From: Syntrophaceae bacterium
GTDB lineage: Bacteria > Desulfobacterota > BSN033 > UBA1163
DNA: 64,000 bases
Reading direction: 5' to 3'
Assembly: GCA_013388635.1 (NCBI GenBank)
Contig: JACAEX010000043.1
Span: 1 to 64,000, forward strand
The position numbers and the translations under genes are program-made. Numbering within the stretch: the stretch's first letter is position 1; the number at the start of each line of letters is the position of its first letter. Shown here one piece after another: positions 32,702-52,417 of the stretch. The notes beneath the pieces are model-generated. The model was given only the letters and a program-made list of their open reading frames with translations. It did no database searches and was not told where the DNA came from.

Positions 32702-33718
32702 CTAAATCTTTAGCACACCGTTATCCAGGACCACCTTCCCGTCAAAATAGACAGTCGCATCCTTGTACATCGCATCGATATGGTTCGGCGCCAGAATCTT
32801 CCCTCCGATGGCGAAGTTGCTTCCAATCCCTGCATGGCAGTTTCCCAGGCGGCCCAGATCCTCTAAGTTGGTCGCTGCGAGGCGGGCCTTGGGGTTGAGA
32901 CCGATCCCGAATTCAGCATAATTATAAGCCTTCTCGTCATTCAGGACCTCGAGAATCTGCCGGAGCTTGTTAGCGGCCATGCCTCCCTGTATATCGACCA
33001 CCTTGCCCTGTTTAACGATGAGCGTTACAGGATCGTAGAGCGTCACACCGACACTCATAATGCTCACATCGCTGATAATCTTTCCCTCCGCACTCCCTTC
33101 GACCGGAGAGATGTTGATCTCGCTGTCCGGGAATGCCGCAAACTGCCCCGGTTTCTTAAACAGACCGGTCTCATACTGAACCGGCCTGCCCTTCACATAT
33201 CCCCGGATGTCTGTACCGAGCGGCGTTGTGATCCGGACCTCGCTCGACTGGGCGAGGGCTGCACCTAAGAGACGCCCCATCCTGTCGCACGCTTCGTAGT
33301 CGGCCTCGATCGCTCCAACGCAGAGGGCGTCCTCTGTCACCTCACACATCGTGCTTCCCCGTTTTCCTGCCTTGATCGCCTCCACCCTTGCCTTCGTATG
33401 GGTCTGGGACCAGGTGCTCGGCTGGAGAAAGACATCCGCCTCCCTGAACGCCGCCACCACTGGCTCTGGAAGCTGTGCTCCGTGAACCCCAACCGGCGGG
33501 ATCATCATGATGATGGGTGTGGCGCCGACCGCATAGGCTGCCGCTGCCAGTGCCTCTGCAATCCTGAGCTTGTTGGTGTCGGTGGAGATCAAGACGGTCT
33601 CACCCTCCTTCACATCTCCGCATTTCATGCATTTCATCGCCCCTTTCATCATCTGAATAGGGCTCGAAGCCCCGGGCGTATAATGCCAGTATGAAATTGG
33701 CCATTCTCTCGTGCTCAT
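32702..33718 (-). CDS. M29-like metalloprotein (aminopeptidase T / NicX-type)
   Basis: A 338-residue protein resembling thermophilic M29 aminopeptidases and the homologous 2,5-dihydroxypyridine dioxygenase NicX. The N-terminal part has a cysteine pair CMKCGDVKEGETVLI near 30. Putative metal ligands are glutamates in SPVEGSAEG and YAEFGIGLNP, and histidine/aspartate in NCHAGIG and NHIDAM; the HxD pair matches both families. Whether it cleaves peptides or ring amides cannot be decided. The start ATG follows GAAAGGAGGTCGCT. It is flanked on both sides by spacers of 170-260 bases, so it may be a single-gene unit. Confidence 0.75.
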   Translation of the reverse strand: MSTREWPISYWHYTPGASSPIQMMKGAMKCMKCGDVKEGETVLISTDTNKLRIAEALAAAAYAVGATPIIMMIPPVGVHGAQLPEPVVAAFREADVFLQPSTWSQTHTKARVEAIKAGKRGSTMCEVTEDALCVGAIEADYEACDRMGRLLGAALAQSSEVRITTPLGTDIRGYVKGRPVQYETGLFKKPGQFAAFPDSEINISPVEGSAEGKIISDVSIMSVGVTLYDPVTLIVKQGKVVDIQGGMAANKLRQILEVLNDEKAYNYAEFGIGLNPKARLAATNLEDLGRLGNCHAGIGSNFAIGGKILAPNHIDAMYKDATVYFDGKVVLDNGVLKI

Positions 33719-33889: not shown

Positions 33890-35848
33890 CTATACATTCC
33901 TTCCTGCCTCAAATCCTTCTCTTACCGCCTCTAAGATGCCTCTTGGCTTCACACAGTCCCCGACCTTCACAACCTTTATTCCCGCCCGGACCAGTTCATC
34001 ATAAAGCCCGTCGTTCGGTTCAGCGCCGACCGCAAAGACAAGCGTCCCGATCTGAACCCTGATCTTCTCACTTCCCTGTTTCAGTACTGCGAGCTCTCTC
34101 TCCATCCCAAGGAGCTCGGTTCCAGTATAAACCTCGACGCCCTTCTCTTTAAACCTCATATTGAAATAGGTCTTTGTATCCGCGTCTGCTCCTGCTGCAA
34201 TCTCCGGAAGGACTTCCACAAGGATCACCCTCATCCCTCTCTCACCAAGGTGATCAGCGGTCTCACAGCCGACAAGACCTGCTCCGAGCACCAGGCAAAC
34301 CCCTTCTGGCTCTTTCTCACCAGAGAGGATTTCCCACGCTGTCATCGTACGGATCTTCTCCACACCGGGGATATGTTGAGATCGGGGCTGAGCCCCTGTC
34401 GCCAATATCACACCATCAGGCCGACCTCTCTTAATAAAGGACCCCACAGCCTTTCTTCCCATCACCACCTTCACCTCTGTCCGCTTGAGCCGGTTGAGGA
34501 GAAATGTCTTGAACGCCTCGATCTCTTTCCTCCCCGGAGGAATCGAAGCCAAATTCAGTTGGCCTCCCAAATCTTTGCTCCTCTCTATAACCGAGACCCT
34601 GTGCCCTCTCTCCCAGGCCGCATGAGCAGCCTCCAAACCTGCTGGACCTGCTCCGACCACGAAGATCTTTTTCCCCCTAACCTCTGGCTCAGGAAAGGCC
34701 TCCTTTTCCCGGCCAAGCAGAGGATTGACCGAACACTGGATGTCCAGCTGTTCAAAGATCCGTTTGTAGCATCCTTCATTACAGGCAATGCAGGGTCTGA
34801 TCCAGTCCTCCTTACCCTCTGAGGCCTTCTGGGGAAGATAAGGATCGGCAAGAAGCGGTCGGCCCATGGCGACCAGGTCGGCTTTGCCTTGAACAATAAT
34901 CTCTTCTGCTAATGCAGGATGATTGATCCTCCCCACGGTGATGACCGGGATCCGAAGGGCCTGCTTCATATGAGCCGCCAGCGGGACGAGACATCCGTGT
35001 CCGGTCATCATCGGCAGTGTCCGCAATATCTTGTGGGGCTCGTTCAAGTCGCCCAACTTCTTTGCTCCAACCGAGCCAGCCGAAACCATGATCGCATCGA
35101 TTCCTGCCTCCTGGCTAAGAAGGGCAACCTGGGTCATCTCCTCCAAGCCCAATCCTCCCTCAATGAACTCGTCTCCGCTGACCTTGATGGTGAGCGGAAA
35201 ATCCTTTCCCAGCCGCTTCTTTATTCCATGAACGACCTCCAGAAGGAAACGACTTCGCCCTGAAAGATCTCCTCCGTATTCGTCACTTCTTCGATTGGAA
35301 AGGGGGGAGAGAAAAGAGGGAATGAGATATCCGTGTGCGCTGTGGATATCCACGCCGTCAAACCCGGCCTCCCTGGCTCGGATCGCTGCTTCAATGTGTG
35401 CTTCGATCAGATCTCTGACCTCTTCTCTTGTGAGAGACCGTGGGACCTCTGCCCCGGGGTAGGCTGGCAGATCGGAAGGAGCCACAGGCCGAAGTCCGGT
35501 CACCTTCGAATTCGCCCTTCCTCCGGCATGATGAATCTGGATGAAGATCTTAACATCGTTATTCAATCGATGAACCATGTCAGTCAACTGACGCAGCCTT
35601 TTGACATGTTCTTCAGAGACAAGGCCGAGCTGATTCCTGTAGCCCCTGCCCTCGGCCGTGAAGAATGTCCCTTCGACGACGATCAGGCCAACCCCTCCTT
35701 TTGCCCTCTCCACGTAGTAATGAATGAGTTTGTCCGTGGCGAGGCCCTCCTCCGTGGCGTAGTTCATCGTCATGGGAGACATGACCAGCCGGTTCTTGAG
35801 CATGAGACTTCCTAACTGACAGGGTTGAAACAGATTGGGATATTTCAT
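33890..35848 (-). CDS. 2,4-dienoyl-CoA reductase-like NADH:flavin oxidoreductase (FMN/[4Fe-4S]/FAD)
   Basis: A 652-residue complete ene-reductase. The FMN-binding TIM barrel covers 1-330 (NRLVMSPMTMNYATEEG, FIQIHHAGGRA, GVDIHSAHGYLIPSFLSP, GRPLLADPYLP). A [4Fe-4S] cysteine set CxxCxxxC...C (CIACNEGC and QCSVNP) lies near 335-355. The FAD domain begins VVGAGPAGLEAAHAA near 380 and the NAD domain VLGAGLVGCETADHL near 515. It would reduce a C=C bond conjugated to a carbonyl or thioester with NAD(P)H. ATG 35848 has GGAGGAG upstream and overlaps the stop of the upstream oxidoreductase gene (ATGA), linking it to the CooS-like cluster. Confidence 0.9.
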   Translation of the reverse strand: MKYPNLFQPCQLGSLMLKNRLVMSPMTMNYATEEGLATDKLIHYYVERAKGGVGLIVVEGTFFTAEGRGYRNQLGLVSEEHVKRLRQLTDMVHRLNNDVKIFIQIHHAGGRANSKVTGLRPVAPSDLPAYPGAEVPRSLTREEVRDLIEAHIEAAIRAREAGFDGVDIHSAHGYLIPSFLSPLSNRRSDEYGGDLSGRSRFLLEVVHGIKKRLGKDFPLTIKVSGDEFIEGGLGLEEMTQVALLSQEAGIDAIMVSAGSVGAKKLGDLNEPHKILRTLPMMTGHGCLVPLAAHMKQALRIPVITVGRINHPALAEEIIVQGKADLVAMGRPLLADPYLPQKASEGKEDWIRPCIACNEGCYKRIFEQLDIQCSVNPLLGREKEAFPEPEVRGKKIFVVGAGPAGLEAAHAAWERGHRVSVIERSKDLGGQLNLASIPPGRKEIEAFKTFLLNRLKRTEVKVVMGRKAVGSFIKRGRPDGVILATGAQPRSQHIPGVEKIRTMTAWEILSGEKEPEGVCLVLGAGLVGCETADHLGERGMRVILVEVLPEIAAGADADTKTYFNMRFKEKGVEVYTGTELLGMERELAVLKQGSEKIRVQIGTLVFAVGAEPNDGLYDELVRAGIKVVKVGDCVKPRGILEAVREGFEAGRNV

Positions 35849-37143
35849 AGGCTCCTCCAATTTCCTCCGGCCCTCTCAAAAAGAAATCCGTGATCGAAAC
35901 CGAGATGCGGGGGGAGATCATGTCGGAATGTCCGAGAAGAGAGAAGACGACCCCATTCATTCGGGGATAACTCAACCCCCCTCTTCATCAGACTCAGGAG
36001 AAAGCCAGCTCCAGAAACATCTCCGACCAAAATGAATCCGATCAAACTCCCTTCTCTGATCACCATCTTCCGGTAGGATTCACGGGTTTCATCAACTAAC
36101 CCATCGATGTCAGCCTGACCTTCGACATACGGATGGCCGGCAGCCATCACCTGGAGGCCAAAAAGAGAGATGGCGTTGAGATTGAAATTCTGAAGACACC
36201 TCTGATCTCCTCCGGCCATATTCGAACCAGCTACCCTTCCCTGCCTGGCCGCGGCAGACCAGGTGGCATGATTCACCCGTTCGGACGTGATCGGGTCAAT
36301 GGTCAGGGCCACGTCTCCGGCTGCATAGACGCCGGAAACGTTTGTCTCCATCCGCTCATCTACTAAGACCCCCTCTCGAAAATCAACTCCTGAGTTGGCG
36401 AGAAACTGGATGTTCGGCCTCACCCCCACAGCCTCGATCACCCTCTGGCAGGGAAATATACGTCCATCTCTCAACCGCACTCCTGAGACCCAGCCCTTCT
36501 GATTCAGAATCTCAACGACCTCCACATCTGTTTCGATCCCCACGCCTTCCTGTCGCAGCCTTTCCTCAACGAGCCGGGATGCCCTCAGATCGAAGATCCG
36601 GGCTGCTAATTTGCGTTCCTTCTCAAGCACCGTCACGCGAAGACCTCGCTCTTTGAGGTGGCATGCCAATTTCAGACCGATGAAACCTCCTCCAATGATC
36701 ACGACCTCCCTCAGATCCCGCTCTCCCTGGAAAATCATCTCCGCATCACGCCGATTTCGAAGCGAGGCCACTCCTCTCGACTCCTTCCCGGGAATGGGGA
36801 GAGAGATAGGAGAAGCGCCTGTGGCGATCAAGAGCCGTTCATACGAAATCTCATCCCCATCCGAGAGCTTCACTTTTCTCGCGACGCCATCGAGCGAAAC
36901 GACCTTTCTGCCCAACCAGAGGTCAATCCTTCTCATCTCAGCCCAGGAGGGGTCACGAAAGAGAAGCCCCTCTTCGGAGAGGTGGCCTGCTATCCAGTAG
37001 GTCAGCATCACAGGAGAAAGAGCTGGGTTTTCATCTTCCGAAACCATAGTAATGGTCCCTTCCGAATCCCGCGGCCGGATCGCCTCCGCAGCAAAGATGC
37101 CTGCAGGTCCGCTGCCGATAATCAGATATTCCAATCTTTTCAC
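35845..37143 (-). CDS. NAD(P)/FAD-dependent oxidoreductase (CODH-cluster FNOR type)
   Basis: A 432-residue flavoprotein of the pyridine-nucleotide disulfide oxidoreductase class II fold. The first FAD motif LIIGSGPAGIFAAEAI is at 7-22, the NAD motif VVIIGGGFIGLKLACHL at about 146-162, and GVYAAGDVAL closes the FAD site near 272. There is no CxxC redox pair. Similar enzymes sit beside cooF and cooS in many genomes and are thought to pass electrons between the CooF ferredoxin and NAD(P). The GTG start follows GGAGGAGATC. It overlaps the downstream ene-reductase by ATGA, and an out-of-frame continuation of the CooS-like gene ends exactly at its GTG. Confidence 0.87.
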   Translation of the reverse strand: MKRLEYLIIGSGPAGIFAAEAIRPRDSEGTITMVSEDENPALSPVMLTYWIAGHLSEEGLLFRDPSWAEMRRIDLWLGRKVVSLDGVARKVKLSDGDEISYERLLIATGASPISLPIPGKESRGVASLRNRRDAEMIFQGERDLREVVIIGGGFIGLKLACHLKERGLRVTVLEKERKLAARIFDLRASRLVEERLRQEGVGIETDVEVVEILNQKGWVSGVRLRDGRIFPCQRVIEAVGVRPNIQFLANSGVDFREGVLVDERMETNVSGVYAAGDVALTIDPITSERVNHATWSAAARQGRVAGSNMAGGDQRCLQNFNLNAISLFGLQVMAAGHPYVEGQADIDGLVDETRESYRKMVIREGSLIGFILVGDVSGAGFLLSLMKRGVELSPNEWGRLLSSRTFRHDLPPHLGFDHGFLFERAGGNWRSL

Positions 37144-37200
37144 TCGGAGATCTCCTCCAGGATCTGAAAGATGGCCCCGGCTGGGATCAGTTCCCTCCCT

Positions 37201-38235
37201 TCACGAAAGAAGATAGACGTTACCGAACCTCTTCCTTAAGGTCTCTGTGAAGAACTTCTCCACCCGCTCACTCCCGTGAATGGGAAGGCCTGGAGAGGAT
37301 AAGACATTGAATCCCAGTGCCAGCGCACCCAGGGTCCAGGTCGCCCGTGGAGATGAAATCAATGTTGTCGTCTTCATCCCGGCTACAGGAATGGACCATT
37401 TCTCGTATAGCCTTCGGCCAATCTCCAAAAGAAACCCAGCGCTCTTAATAGAAAGGGTTGGGACCTCGCCTTTGACCGATTCCTTTAACTTCTGCACCAC
37501 CCCGTCGATCCATTCTTTCGAACCATACCTCTCGTCCTGAACAGTGATGATCACCGGAGAAAGATCGGATGAAACTCCAGCTAAGGTATCAAGCGCTTCT
37601 ATTTGATCCGGGCCTTCTAAATCGGTCAAACCCTTCATATCCCTCTCGATCTCCTCGCAGACAATCCGGATGGTCGATATCTGAAGACATCTCCAGAGAA
37701 TCTCCTCAACATCTGAAGATTCCCTCGAACCCGAGTGGATCGAATCAATAAGGTATCCCATTAAGGGATCAGGAGGAAAAGCCTGTTGGTATAGAGAGGG
37801 AAAAATCCTTTCCGGGCAAAGATTCTTAAGAATGGATCGTTTCCGAGATACCGGCGAAAGGAGGTTTTCTGCCTCTATGGAGAAGTAACGACCCAGGGCC
37901 TTTCCCGTGGTCTTTGGGGAAAGAGCATACTTTTCAATGATCCTGCTCCGGAATCCAGAGGAGGCACGTCTTCTGGCATGGGTCTCTGGCCCGAGAGAGG
38001 AAAATCTTTCTATCGCCCTCCTCAGGGAGCCCAACCCCTCCAGGATCTCTCCCCCGACCAGCCTGAGAAGGTTTTTAGCGACGATCCGATCAGGACCCTC
38101 TCCGCACTGCCCTTTCTCCGAATCCTTCTCAAAAGGGCTGATGCGACATGGACCAAGGAGGCAGGAAGAGCAGCAGAGGCCGAGAAGGCCATATCCACAG
38201 GGTGGAACTCCCTCCCCCCTTTCACGTCGCCTCAT
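37201..38235 (-). CDS. CooS-like protein with D- and B-cluster cysteines but no C-cluster
   Basis: A 344-residue protein related to the nickel carbon-monoxide dehydrogenase CooS (normally about 630). The N-terminus CGYGLLGLCCSSCLLGPCRI has C13, C21, C22, C25, C30 and C44. The spacing 8-1-3-5-14 is identical to C39, C47, C48, C51, C56 and C70 of Carboxydothermus CooS-II, the D-cluster and B-cluster ligands. The following GPDRIVAKNLLRLV matches the next CooS helix. The C-terminus (GFNVLSSPGLPIHGSERVEKF) resembles the CooS C-terminal domain. Only three other cysteines (140, 183, 193) exist, so the six-ligand nickel-iron C-cluster cannot form. CO oxidation is therefore unlikely; electron wiring or scaffolding is an inference. 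The start overlaps the CooF-like stop by 14 bases. Confidence 0.78.
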   Translation of the reverse strand: MRRRERGEGVPPCGYGLLGLCCSSCLLGPCRISPFEKDSEKGQCGEGPDRIVAKNLLRLVGGEILEGLGSLRRAIERFSSLGPETHARRRASSGFRSRIIEKYALSPKTTGKALGRYFSIEAENLLSPVSRKRSILKNLCPERIFPSLYQQAFPPDPLMGYLIDSIHSGSRESSDVEEILWRCLQISTIRIVCEEIERDMKGLTDLEGPDQIEALDTLAGVSSDLSPVIITVQDERYGSKEWIDGVVQKLKESVKGEVPTLSIKSAGFLLEIGRRLYEKWSIPVAGMKTTTLISSPRATWTLGALALGFNVLSSPGLPIHGSERVEKFFTETLRKRFGNVYLLS

Positions 38236-38722
38236 GTGACTCCCCCATCATCGAGATCATCCTCTTTCTTTTCGCCTGGACAAAAGAAGTGATCTCCTGA
38301 AAGACAAGGGCCTCGGTCTGACAGGCCTCGACACAGGGAGGGATTTCTCTCTCAGGACAGAGATTACATTTACTGACACGCTCTTCCTTCTCATCATATC
38401 TCAGGGCATCATAAGGACAGACCAGGATACAGGATCCACATCCTACACAGCTTTCTCGCTGATGAAAGACTCCTGCCCCTCCTTCTGTTTGAACCAGACT
38501 GCCGGTGACACATGCCTCCACGCAGGGCGCAGAGACGCATTGCTCGCATTTCCAAACCCAGGGGGTCCCCTGGAAGAACGTTAGCCTCATCCTCTGGAGC
38601 GGTGCCTTGTCGTGAGGGATCTCTCGAGGATTCGAAACCCTGAGAGACTCCATCTCACAGGCCAGGACACAGGATTGGCATAACATGCATCGTTCAGGAC
38701 GAAAAAAAATCTTCCGCCTCAT
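38222..38722 (-). CDS. CooF-like four-cluster ferredoxin
   Basis: A 166-residue polyferredoxin with 16 cysteines in four groups: C12-C15-C18-C22, C59-C62-C67-C71, C92-C95-C98-C102, and C119-C122-C130-C134. That gives four [4Fe-4S] clusters as in CooF/HycB/DmsB-type subunits. It would carry electrons between the CooS-like partner and the NAD/FAD oxidoreductase. The opening KIFFRPERCMLCQSC is typical of CooF. ATG 38722 (with AGGA 10 bases upstream) is chosen over a GTG at 38758 that lies at the edge of repeat copy B. It overlaps the CooS-like gene by 14 bases. Confidence 0.85.
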   Translation of the reverse strand: MRRKIFFRPERCMLCQSCVLACEMESLRVSNPREIPHDKAPLQRMRLTFFQGTPWVWKCEQCVSAPCVEACVTGSLVQTEGGAGVFHQRESCVGCGSCILVCPYDALRYDEKEERVSKCNLCPEREIPPCVEACQTEALVFQEITSFVQAKRKRMISMMGESHEAT

Positions 38723-38732
38723 AGTAAAGGGA

Positions 38733-38857
38733 TCCTCGAATAATTCCAAATTCGTCACTCCTGCCCCGTATTAAGTACGGGGTAAACTCCGGCAGGAGTC
38801 CAGTGGTTTCAACAGGTTCTGGATTCCGGCCTTCGCCGGAATGACATTTTTAGAGGT
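38733..38857. repeat. 125-bp MITE-like repeat, copy B
   Basis: Same length, orientation and layout as copy A at 2344-2468. The outer hairpin is ACTCCTGCC...GGCAGGAGT and the second hairpin ATTCCGGC-cttc-GCCGGAAT. Both differ from copy A by paired changes that keep the stems intact. The right terminus TTAGAGGT is conserved; the left terminus has drifted (TCCTCGAA). It lies between the CooF-like gene and the end of the aldehyde ferredoxin oxidoreductase gene. Confidence 0.85.
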
Positions 38858-40808: not shown

Positions 40809-41300
40809 TCACTCATTGCCAGCTGTCCCGAGGAATTTTGCAAACTGTTTCATCCGGTGCGAGGCCAGTTGACCGCCATCGGTCAGCTTCAAGACCTTGG
40901 CCGGACAGTAGGCAACACATTGCGGATCCCCGCCACAGAGATCACACTTGGATGCCACCCCATCCACCGGGTCCAGGATCACCGCTCCTGCCGGGCAGGC
41001 ATTGACGCACATCGCACAACCGATACAGAGGTCTTTGTTGACCAGAACCATGCCGTCCGTCTCTTTCCGGTAAAGGGCCCCGGTAGGACAGATCTTCATA
41101 CATGGCGCATCCTGACAATTGAGGCAGGTCACAGGAATATCCTCTCCCTTGCCCATCACCATCACCCTGATCCGGCTTCGCCTCGGGTTGCCAACCTGAT
41201 GGTGGTGAAACGCACAGATCAGCTCGCACAGCCGACAACGGCTGCAGATCTTTTCTGGATCCCTTCGATCTTCGAAATAGCCAATCCTTTCTTTGGCCAT
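40809..41300 (-). CDS. four-cluster ferredoxin partner of the aldehyde oxidoreductase
   Basis: A 163-residue polyferredoxin with 16 cysteines: CSRCRLCELIC near 19, CLNCQDAPCMKICP near 59, CIGCAMCVNACP near 92 and CDLCGGDPQCVAYCP near 118. These would hold four [4Fe-4S] clusters. Polyferredoxins of this DmsB/HycB type accompany AOR in many anaerobes and are its likely electron acceptor. ATG 41300 after GGGGGGATGAG is preferred over a GTG at 41318. The gene overlaps or abuts the MoaD-like gene upstream and precedes aor by about 20 bases. Confidence 0.88.
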   Translation of the reverse strand: MAKERIGYFEDRRDPEKICSRCRLCELICAFHHHQVGNPRRSRIRVMVMGKGEDIPVTCLNCQDAPCMKICPTGALYRKETDGMVLVNKDLCIGCAMCVNACPAGAVILDPVDGVASKCDLCGGDPQCVAYCPAKVLKLTDGGQLASHRMKQFAKFLGTAGNE

Positions 41301-41301
41301 C

Positions 41302-41604
41302 TCATCCCCCCGACACAAAATATAACAGACTGACCCGATCGCCCTCCATCAGTCGAACCTCCTTCTGGCTGAGGGCGACTCCTGTGTAGATCTGATCATT
41401 GACCATGACCATCAATCCCGGCATCACGGACCCCTCTCCTTTCTCAAAAAGAAGATCCTTCATCCTCTCTCCATATTCGAGAGAAAGGCGCATACAGAGC
41501 CCTTGGACTGTCGCCTCCTCCTCTTTCAACTGGATCGTGAAAAGGGGAGAGGGACATAGGGATTGGAAGACAGGGGACAGCTCAACACGGACCGTGATAG
41601 ACAT
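41302..41604 (-). CDS. MoaD/ThiS-like ubiquitin-fold sulfur carrier of the AOR operon
   Basis: A 100-residue beta-grasp protein ending in the diglycine FVSGG that is adenylated and thiocarboxylated in MoaD/ThiS proteins. The body has ITVRVELSPVFQSL and VMVNDQIYTGVALSQKEV, followed by GDRVSLLYFVSGG, all typical of the fold. Such genes are often found with AOR-type enzymes and are thought to serve their pterin cofactor. ATG 41604, after GGAGAAG, removes a 15-residue upstream extension. It is the first gene of the AOR operon and is divergent from gntR. Confidence 0.85.
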   Translation of the reverse strand: MSITVRVELSPVFQSLCPSPLFTIQLKEEEATVQGLCMRLSLEYGERMKDLLFEKGEGSVMPGLMVMVNDQIYTGVALSQKEVRLMEGDRVSLLYFVSGG

Positions 41605-51535: not shown

Positions 51536-52417
51536 ATGCTGAGATTTGAGAAACGGGTTCGAAACCTGCTGGAGGGCGCAATCGATGCCCATATCCACTC
51601 TTCTCCTGACATCTTTCCCCGGATCATGAACGACATCGACCTGGCCCTCATGGCAAAGCAGGAGGGCATGCGCGCCATTCTGATCAAGAGCCATGTGGTG
51701 AGCACAGCAGACCGGGCGGAGATCGCAAGCCAACAGACAGGCTTTCCGGTATTCGGCGGCATTGCCTTAAATCTACCTGTTGGCGGTTTGAATCTCGAAG
51801 CCGTGGAGGTCGCTCTCAAGATGGGAGCGAAAGAGGTCTGGATGCCGACGATTCACGCAAGCCATTACATAGCCCAGAAGGACCATGTCCCCACCCTTGC
51901 CAAAGAGGTCAAACCCGACATCAAAGGGATCTACCTCCTGAACGAGGATGGGAGTCTGAAAGACGAGCTCTATCCCATCTTTAAAAAGATTGCAGAATAT
52001 GACGTGGCCCTTGGCACAGGCCATGTCACTCCTAAGGAGACGAAGGTCGTGGTCAGAGAGGCCGCCAGGGTTGGCGTGAAGAAGATCATCGTCACCCATC
52101 CCCTGGCGACCTTCGTCAATTTTTCGAATGAGGAGATGAAAGAGGTGCTCGATCATGGAGCCATGTTCCTGGAACATGTCTTCAACGATGTGACCCGCCA
52201 GGTGGCCCATCCGATCACCCAGAGGATGATTGCCGATGCCATCCGGGCGATCGGCGCAAGGCACATCATCATGTCGACCGACTCAGGACAGTGGCTCAAC
52301 CCGATCCCTGTCCAGTCGATGGGAATCTACATCAAGGATATGTTGGATCTGGGAATTCCAGAAAATGACATCCGGACGATGGTCTCCACCAACCCAGCCC
52401 GGATGTTAGGTTTGTAG
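51536..52417 (+). CDS. DUF6282-type amidohydrolase-like protein
   Basis: A 293-residue TIM-barrel-type protein. DAHIHSSPDIFPR at 17-29 supplies an HxH metal motif, and further histidines occur in SHVVS, HASHYI and VTHPLATFVNF, with STDSGQWLNP near 240. This order matches amidohydrolase-superfamily folds; I believe it belongs to the DUF6282 group. It may hydrolyse a lactone, amide or cyclic acid. ATG follows CAGGAGGATGA. It is in a tight run with TTT set 3 and the dehydrogenase downstream (17-base gap). Confidence 0.75.
   Translation: MLRFEKRVRNLLEGAIDAHIHSSPDIFPRIMNDIDLALMAKQEGMRAILIKSHVVSTADRAEIASQQTGFPVFGGIALNLPVGGLNLEAVEVALKMGAKEVWMPTIHASHYIAQKDHVPTLAKEVKPDIKGIYLLNEDGSLKDELYPIFKKIAEYDVALGTGHVTPKETKVVVREAARVGVKKIIVTHPLATFVNFSNEEMKEVLDHGAMFLEHVFNDVTRQVAHPITQRMIADAIRAIGARHIIMSTDSGQWLNPIPVQSMGIYIKDMLDLGIPENDIRTMVSTNPARMLGL

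Follow-up and report, generated by a model that had tools for sequence, protein, structure and literature searches.

A conserved gene unit combining an AOR-family oxidoreductase, a CooS-like protein without C-cluster cysteines and an ene-reductase in a Syntrophaceae bacterium

Introduction

In the AorABC complex of Aromatoleum aromaticum (8c0z), the iron-sulfur (Fe-S) protein AorA is described as wiring the aldehyde oxidoreductase (AOR) subunit AorB to the flavin adenine dinucleotide (FAD) of AorC and as forming a filament (PMC10413684). A second kind of system consists of gene clusters for CooF, the carbon monoxide dehydrogenase (CODH) CooS and an FAD-nicotinamide adenine dinucleotide (NAD) oxidoreductase (FNOR), which are regarded in a CODH survey as CO-oxidizing units (PMC6344411). 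In this study, we analyzed a 64,000-nucleotide stretch of contig JACAEX010000043.1 of Syntrophaceae bacterium (GCA_013388635.1; here, genome G000), referred to in its full length as the window, and describe a conserved unit of six genes that encode, in order, an AorA-like Fe-S protein (FeS-A), an AOR-family oxidoreductase (AOR), a CooF-like polyferredoxin (CooF-B), a CooS-like protein (CooS), an FNOR and an OYE/FadH-type ene-reductase (OYE). The unit is a new combination of known kinds, in which an AorABC-like unit is combined with a CODH/FNOR-like unit whose CooS has no C-cluster and with an ene-reductase. No description of a CooS-AOR unit was found among the titles and abstract openings listed in searches of open-licence PubMed Central papers.

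AOR, AorA-like and AorC-like subunits are common to AorABC and the unit, which adds CooF-B and CooS between AOR and FNOR and the OYE after FNOR. With the CODH/FNOR clusters, the unit shares adjacent CooF, CooS and FNOR genes, the CODH fold (predicted here) and the cysteines of the D and B clusters; it differs from these clusters, as described in the survey, by the absence of the C-cluster site, a shorter CooS chain and the added AOR and OYE (PMC6344411). CooS-V of Carboxydothermus hydrogenoformans is likewise a CODH scaffold that departs from a true CODH but is described as retaining a hybrid Fe/S/O cluster where the CooS of the unit has no site (PMC9311411). Mini-CooS of Thermosinus carboxydivorans is a shortened CODH scaffold that is said to have complete cluster motifs (PMC8776680); the small size of the CooS of the unit fits a protein of this type, but this identity was ruled out by the missing C-cluster motif. 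Class IV bifurcating WORs and the Bam benzoyl-coenzyme A (CoA) reductase are described as having an AOR-family subunit, a small Fe-S subunit and further redox subunits (PMC13328260), as the unit does, whereas no WorABC-like or HdrA-like subunit was present among the Pfam matches of the unit or the NCBIfam matches listed. The terms CooS, carbon monoxide, yellow enzyme, ene-reductase, enoate and AorC do not occur in the main text of PMC13328260.

Recurrence and co-inheritance of the unit

Overlapping sets of 59 related genomes, 23 genomes of the class, 395 genomes drawn from the phylum and 8 genomes of the class of G236 were searched. A scan of named contigs, which was the sole search beyond the phylum of the window and may have left out records near the genome of the window, produced 58 stretches matching the pattern, 1 of which encoded a relative, found in a "Deltaproteobacteria bacterium" metagenome-assembled genome (G014). 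CooS of this type was detected in seven genomes from four families (G000, G014, G017, G019, G022, G140 and G236). The order FeS-A, AOR, CooF-B, CooS, FNOR, OYE was complete in G000 (a probable CooS frameshift aside), G014 and G140. All six genes were also present in G236, but frame changes and a gap interrupt the OYE there. In G017, G019 and G022, the unit is truncated by contig ends, with the same gene order being observed as far as the contigs extend; the truncation in G019 falls within CooS, and the AOR of this genome is divided between two frames on either side of unknown bases.

The original prediction, made from the window alone, had proposed a tightly ordered set of four minus-strand genes for CooF-like, CooS-like, FNOR and OYE proteins. 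All four are present, and their order is shared by related genomes instead of being confined to this one. The set is real but was cut too short, as the unit continues upstream with AOR and FeS-A, with a ThiS-family gene beyond. CooF, CooS and FNOR were adjacent in the unit as far as the G019 contig allows. The predicted 14-base overlap of CooF-B and CooS (window positions 38222 to 38235) was found in 6/7 genomes and is 4 bases long in G140; the retention of an overlap in all seven indicated a pattern that is more than chance. The predicted ATGA overlap of FNOR and OYE was likewise present, with the ATG (35848 to 35846) lying over the TGA (35847 to 35845) to give 4 shared bases. The gap between AOR and CooF-B was 142 bases in the window, 148 in G014, 9 in G017 and 1 in G236, and the two genes overlap in G140.

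Co-inheritance was apparent in the 395-genome set. This CooS was detected at an expect value (E) of ≤1e-25 in 5/395 genomes (G000, G017, G019, G140 and G236), and AORs with at least 74% identity were found in exactly these five. The next AORs, at 45 to 46% identity, belong to G140, as an additional copy, and to G167, in which this CooS is missing. At E ≤ 1e-85, FNOR was detected in four of the five CooS-bearing genomes and in no other genome of the set, the fifth being the contig-truncated G019. OYE-type genes are common, with 36 genomes having one at E ≤ 1e-130, and the ortholog was set apart by identity (64% in G140 and then ≤44%); orthologs were absent from this count in G017 (contig end) and G236 (broken gene). 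In trees, the six FNORs formed one clade (100/100), as did the seven CooF-Bs (100/100).

The ratio of nonsynonymous to synonymous substitutions (dN/dS) between the window and G014 was <1 for all six genes, at 0.063 for AOR, 0.085 for FeS-A, 0.13 for OYE, 0.18 for FNOR, 0.30 for CooF-B and 0.33 for CooS, values that are rough owing to large synonymous distances (0.64 to 1.15). The first 60 codons of CooS had a ratio of 0.19, lower than that of the whole gene. Higher ratios were obtained for the near pair G022/G017 (0.50 for CooS and 0.67 for CooF-B), on few changes. For identity and dN/dS, the G019 AOR (two fragments) was left out and the contig-cut genes of G017 and G022 were counted over the part present.

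Cluster ligands and predicted fold of the CooS-like protein

Sequence matches to CODHs covered only the N-terminal ~60 to 70 residues of CooS. Six cysteines (C13, C21, C22, C25, C30 and C44), and no others, were invariant in 7/7 orthologs. A constant offset of 26 to CODH-II places them on residues 39, 47, 48, 51, 56 and 70, which we take to be the D and B cluster ligands. The columns of the C-cluster cysteines of canonical CooS were occupied by gaps or other residues in all seven orthologs. Judged from this alignment, the CO-oxidizing site is gone, as had been predicted, and the electron-transfer cluster ligands are retained.

AlphaFold models of the G014 ortholog with 7 or 19 rows had predicted local distance difference test (pLDDT) scores of 76.3 and 77.6 and predicted template modeling (pTM) scores of 0.80 and 0.81, respectively. 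Comparison of the 7-row model with a solved CODH gave a Z score of 28.1 and a root mean square deviation of 3.5 over 346 of 364 residues, the CODH chain having 633 residues. A Foldseek search with the same model returned low TM-scores, of 0.37 to 0.44 for most matches and 0.68 for two. The predicted fold is that of a CODH that is ~270 residues shorter.

The window copy of CooS has 344 amino acids (aa), compared to 360 to 367 aa in full-length relatives. Its frame stops at 37201, and another frame, which translates from 37205 as REGRELIPAGAIFQILEEISE, reaches a TGA that overlaps the GTG start of FNOR; this is the GTGA junction in another frame to which the original prediction had drawn attention. 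The difference in length pointed to a probable late frameshift or sequence error near the 3' end of the window copy, with a loss of ~20 C-terminal residues.

CooS-like proteins of other FNOR-CooF-CooS clusters

Three further FNOR-CooF-CooS clusters from the family of the window, L072 (G001), L071 (G004) and L073 (G011), encode a CooS that keeps the five D/B columns counted and is without four of the five C-cluster cysteine columns. All C-cluster cysteine columns are lost in the 533-aa CooS of L074 (G047), where the order is CooF-CooS-FNOR as in the window. The C-cluster cysteines are kept in a cluster on contig C60 of the genome of the window (L075). These alignments suggest that loss of C-cluster ligands in FNOR-CooF-CooS clusters is wider than CODH surveys show. 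The main survey is described as having removed proteins of <550 aa or with deletions at cluster sites (PMC6344411), and C-cluster-less CooS proteins would thus be missing from its catalogue. The unit also cautions against reading CO metabolism into a CooS match that lies next to CooF and FNOR.

These clusters also encode a ferredoxin-like protein and a protein of 214 to 219 aa that starts with MTHSLHRRG or a similar sequence; the two members of the latter family that were tested had no Pfam or NCBIfam match.

Partner subunits

The best solved matches of AOR were aldehyde enzymes (9mqx_D, 1aor, 9g7j and 8c0z_A), followed by formaldehyde oxidoreductase, WOR83, BamB and WOR5. Alignment with AorB, in which active-site roles are described for Glu331, His464 and Tyr443 (PMC10413684), indicated that Glu331 is represented by Asp or Glu and that His464 is kept. 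FeS-A had AorA (8c0z_C; 2.1e-29) as its best solved match and grouped in a tree with AorA and other AOR-linked Fe-S proteins (91/78). For FNOR, the best solved match was AorC (8c0z_E; 1.5e-48), followed by NADH oxidase (2.5e-42), and the match to the PadH model, at 6.5e-82, was below the cut-off of that model. The 3.4-Mb genome of the window contains 16 AFOR_C match stretches above the family cut-off, spread over many contigs, an unusually large AOR repertoire.

The ene-reductase consists of a flavin mononucleotide (FMN) barrel, a [4Fe-4S] motif and an FAD/NAD domain, which is the layout of the OYE/FadH Fe-S flavoenzyme family and is shared, together with the motif, with 2-naphthoyl-CoA reductase (6qkg) and 2,4-dienoyl-CoA reductase (DCR; 1ps9). 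The motif CX2CX3CX11C was present in the window, G014, G022 and G140 and not in the broken copy of G236. The best solved match was 2-naphthoyl-CoA reductase (6.1e-94), and DCRs were also matched. In a pairwise alignment with DCR, Tyr166 was matched and His252 was aligned with Lys, both being positions that we take to have a known role in DCR. The structure match, the DCR alignment and the 395-genome count for OYE were made with a 651-residue version without the first Met. G017 has an additional, divergent OYE/FadH-like gene upstream of the unit (L029, 5685 to 7712), with 33% identity to the OYE of the window.

Proposed electron path and alternatives

With both AorABC-like and CODH/FNOR-like sets present and a CooS that is without a CO site, the most economical explanation assigns CooF-B and CooS to electron transfer between AOR/FeS-A and FNOR. 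We tentatively favor, at slightly short of an even chance, the reading that the unit is a variant AorABC-like aldehyde:NAD+ oxidoreductase in which the CODH-derived CooF-CooS pair carries electrons between the tungsten (W) enzyme and the flavoprotein, with the ene-reductase being a co-inherited NADH consumer or partner. The AOR, with W as its presumed metal, would interconvert an aldehyde and its acid at a W-pterin site. If the clusters are occupied, electrons would pass, within a physically associated complex and presumably in this order and direction, from the [4Fe-4S] cluster of AOR to FeS-A, from there to CooF-B as a second polyferredoxin and then to the CooS-derived protein. The latter, predicted to hold D and B [4Fe-4S] clusters only and no Ni-Fe C-cluster, would serve as a wire or dimeric junction and pass electrons to the FAD of FNOR and hence to NAD. 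The D cluster of CODH is described as lying at the dimer interface (PMC6344411), and the CooS-like protein could therefore be a two-fold junction. The OYE/FadH-type enzyme may use NADH for reducing a C=C bond formed in the same pathway or may dock on the same hub; as it has its own FAD/NAD domain, it could simply use NADH. A peripheral role would fit the broken OYE of G236, if that break is not an assembly fault.

The original prediction, according to which the four-gene module may move electrons between ferredoxin and NADH or drive reduction of an unsaturated acid or thioester, is supported in part. The unit is headed by an AOR-family enzyme with an AorA-like subunit, and the electrons thus probably come from, or go to, an aldehyde/acid site of the W type and not just ferredoxin.

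Several observations weigh against the variant AorABC-like enzyme. Tyr443 of AorB is replaced by Ser or Thr in five AORs and by Ala in the G019 fragment, so that aldehyde activity is uncertain and the substrate may differ from that of AorABC. The C-terminal docking residues of AorC lie outside its alignment to FNOR, and the backbone of the FNOR tree does not decide whether this clade has an AorC or a CODH origin. The cysteine segment of CooS was poorly modeled (pLDDT of ~31 to 48 in both models), CooS and CooF-B evolve fastest within the unit, and the OYE is broken in G236. Contacts between any two of the subunits are ones that we infer.

A more far-reaching form of this proposal is possible, on the doubtful side: a CODH stripped of its catalytic metal site would have been kept as a dimeric Fe-S junction that links a W-enzyme wire to an NAD flavoprotein and an ene-reductase. 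A CODH/FNOR complex would thereby have swapped its CO-oxidizing center for an aldehyde one, and its CooS would be a single branch of a broader, uncatalogued set of CooS electron-transfer subunits without a C-cluster. If this is true, a CODH scaffold can be put to use solely for electron transfer after losing the metal site that defines it, and AOR complexes are not restricted to one kind of cap.

Co-inheritance of AOR and FNOR with this CooS, the genes never being apart in the 395 genomes, and the spacing of AOR and CooF-B (1 to 9 bases or an overlap in G017, G236 and G140) argue against a separate module, which we regard as rather unlikely. In such an arrangement, CooF-B, CooS and FNOR would be a ferredoxin:NAD oxidoreductase from a CODH/FNOR cluster, and AOR plus FeS-A and the OYE would be neighbors in one pathway, with exchange only via diffusible ferredoxin and NADH. 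It would be in keeping with the description of CooF-CooS-FNOR alone as a gene set (PMC6344411), with the lack of an adjoining AOR in the similar clusters with a damaged CooS in G001, G004 and G011 and with the location of the best FNOR paralog of the genome of the window (39% identity) in a CODH-type cluster.

It is improbable that the CooS-like protein has no redox function of its own, being left over from a decaying CODH or aiding assembly, and that the working enzyme consists of AOR, FeS-A, FNOR and perhaps CooF-B. Although the rapid evolution of CooS and CooF-B and the apparent frameshift in the window could be explained in this way, the six D/B cysteines are invariant across the four families where other cysteines vary, the dN/dS of CooS is lower in the cluster segment and the predicted fold is intact. 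The invariant cysteines (7/7) and a dN/dS of <1 ruled out a remnant as the main explanation. Flavin-based bifurcation, raised in the original prediction as conceivable, is very improbable for a complex that would couple an aldehyde (or acid), NAD, ferredoxin and an ene-substrate, for, despite two flavoproteins, three predicted flavin sites, long Fe-S chains and the bifurcation described for Class IV WORs with other subunits (PMC13328260), no NuoEF-like (WorABC-type NAD/ferredoxin module), HdrA, Etf or Nfn-type subunit was found among the Pfam matches or the NCBIfam matches listed for the proteins of the unit, and subunits of the AorC type are described simply as NAD-linked (PMC10413684).

Gene layout and flanking genes

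Positions and supporting matches of the genes are given in Table 1. The ThiS/MoaD-like protein is presumably cofactor-related, a role that we take from AOR neighbors in the literature.

Table 1. Genes of the unit and the preceding ThiS-family gene, with positions in the window
Feature	Position	Strand	Evidence
ThiS/MoaD-like protein, 115 aa	41302-41649	minus	PF02597 ThiS, 9.9e-07
FeS-A, AorA-like Fe-S protein, 17 Cys	40809-41318	minus	AorA 8c0z_C match, tree grouping
AOR-family (tungsten-type) oxidoreductase, 634 aa	38901-40805	minus	AFOR_N, 8.3e-76; AFOR_C, 5.6e-121
CooF-B, CooF-like polyferredoxin	38222-38722 (ATG; alternative GTG at 38758)	minus	Fer4_11, 4e-15
CooS-like protein, 344 aa	37201-38235	minus	Prismane over residues 20-109 only; Cys pattern
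Other-frame continuation of CooS, ending in GTGA junction	37140-37205	minus	Translation, ortholog lengths
FNOR of AorC/CODH-FNOR/PadH type	35845-37143	minus	Pyr_redox_2, 1.2e-59
OYE/FadH-type ene-reductase	33890-35848	minus	Oxidored_FMN, 7e-84; Pyr_redox_2, 2.6e-30

The flanks of the unit in the window are rich in genes for organic-acid transport and catabolism (TctA, TctC, DctM, GlcD/GlcF, IlvD, BKACE, MmgE/PrpD and DUF6282). A divergent GntR-type gene lies upstream of the unit, and similar open reading frames, judged by eye, lie upstream in G014 and G236. This gene context points to an organic-acid pathway, without naming the substrate. Genes for DUF6282 were found near the unit in three genomes, at 51536 to 52417 in the window, 1160 to 1996 of L030 (G019) and 13854 to 14762 of L039 (G140), and their recurrence is a possible lead to the pathway.

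An M29-peptidase-like gene does not adjoin the unit in G014 or G140 and follows it in the window (32702 to 33718) and in G236 (L038, 12348 to 13364). Within the gap between AOR and CooF-B, an inverted repeat, GTCATTCCGGCGAAGGCCGGAATCCAG, was found at 38819 to 38845; it occurs once in the window and looks like a dispersed intergenic repeat.

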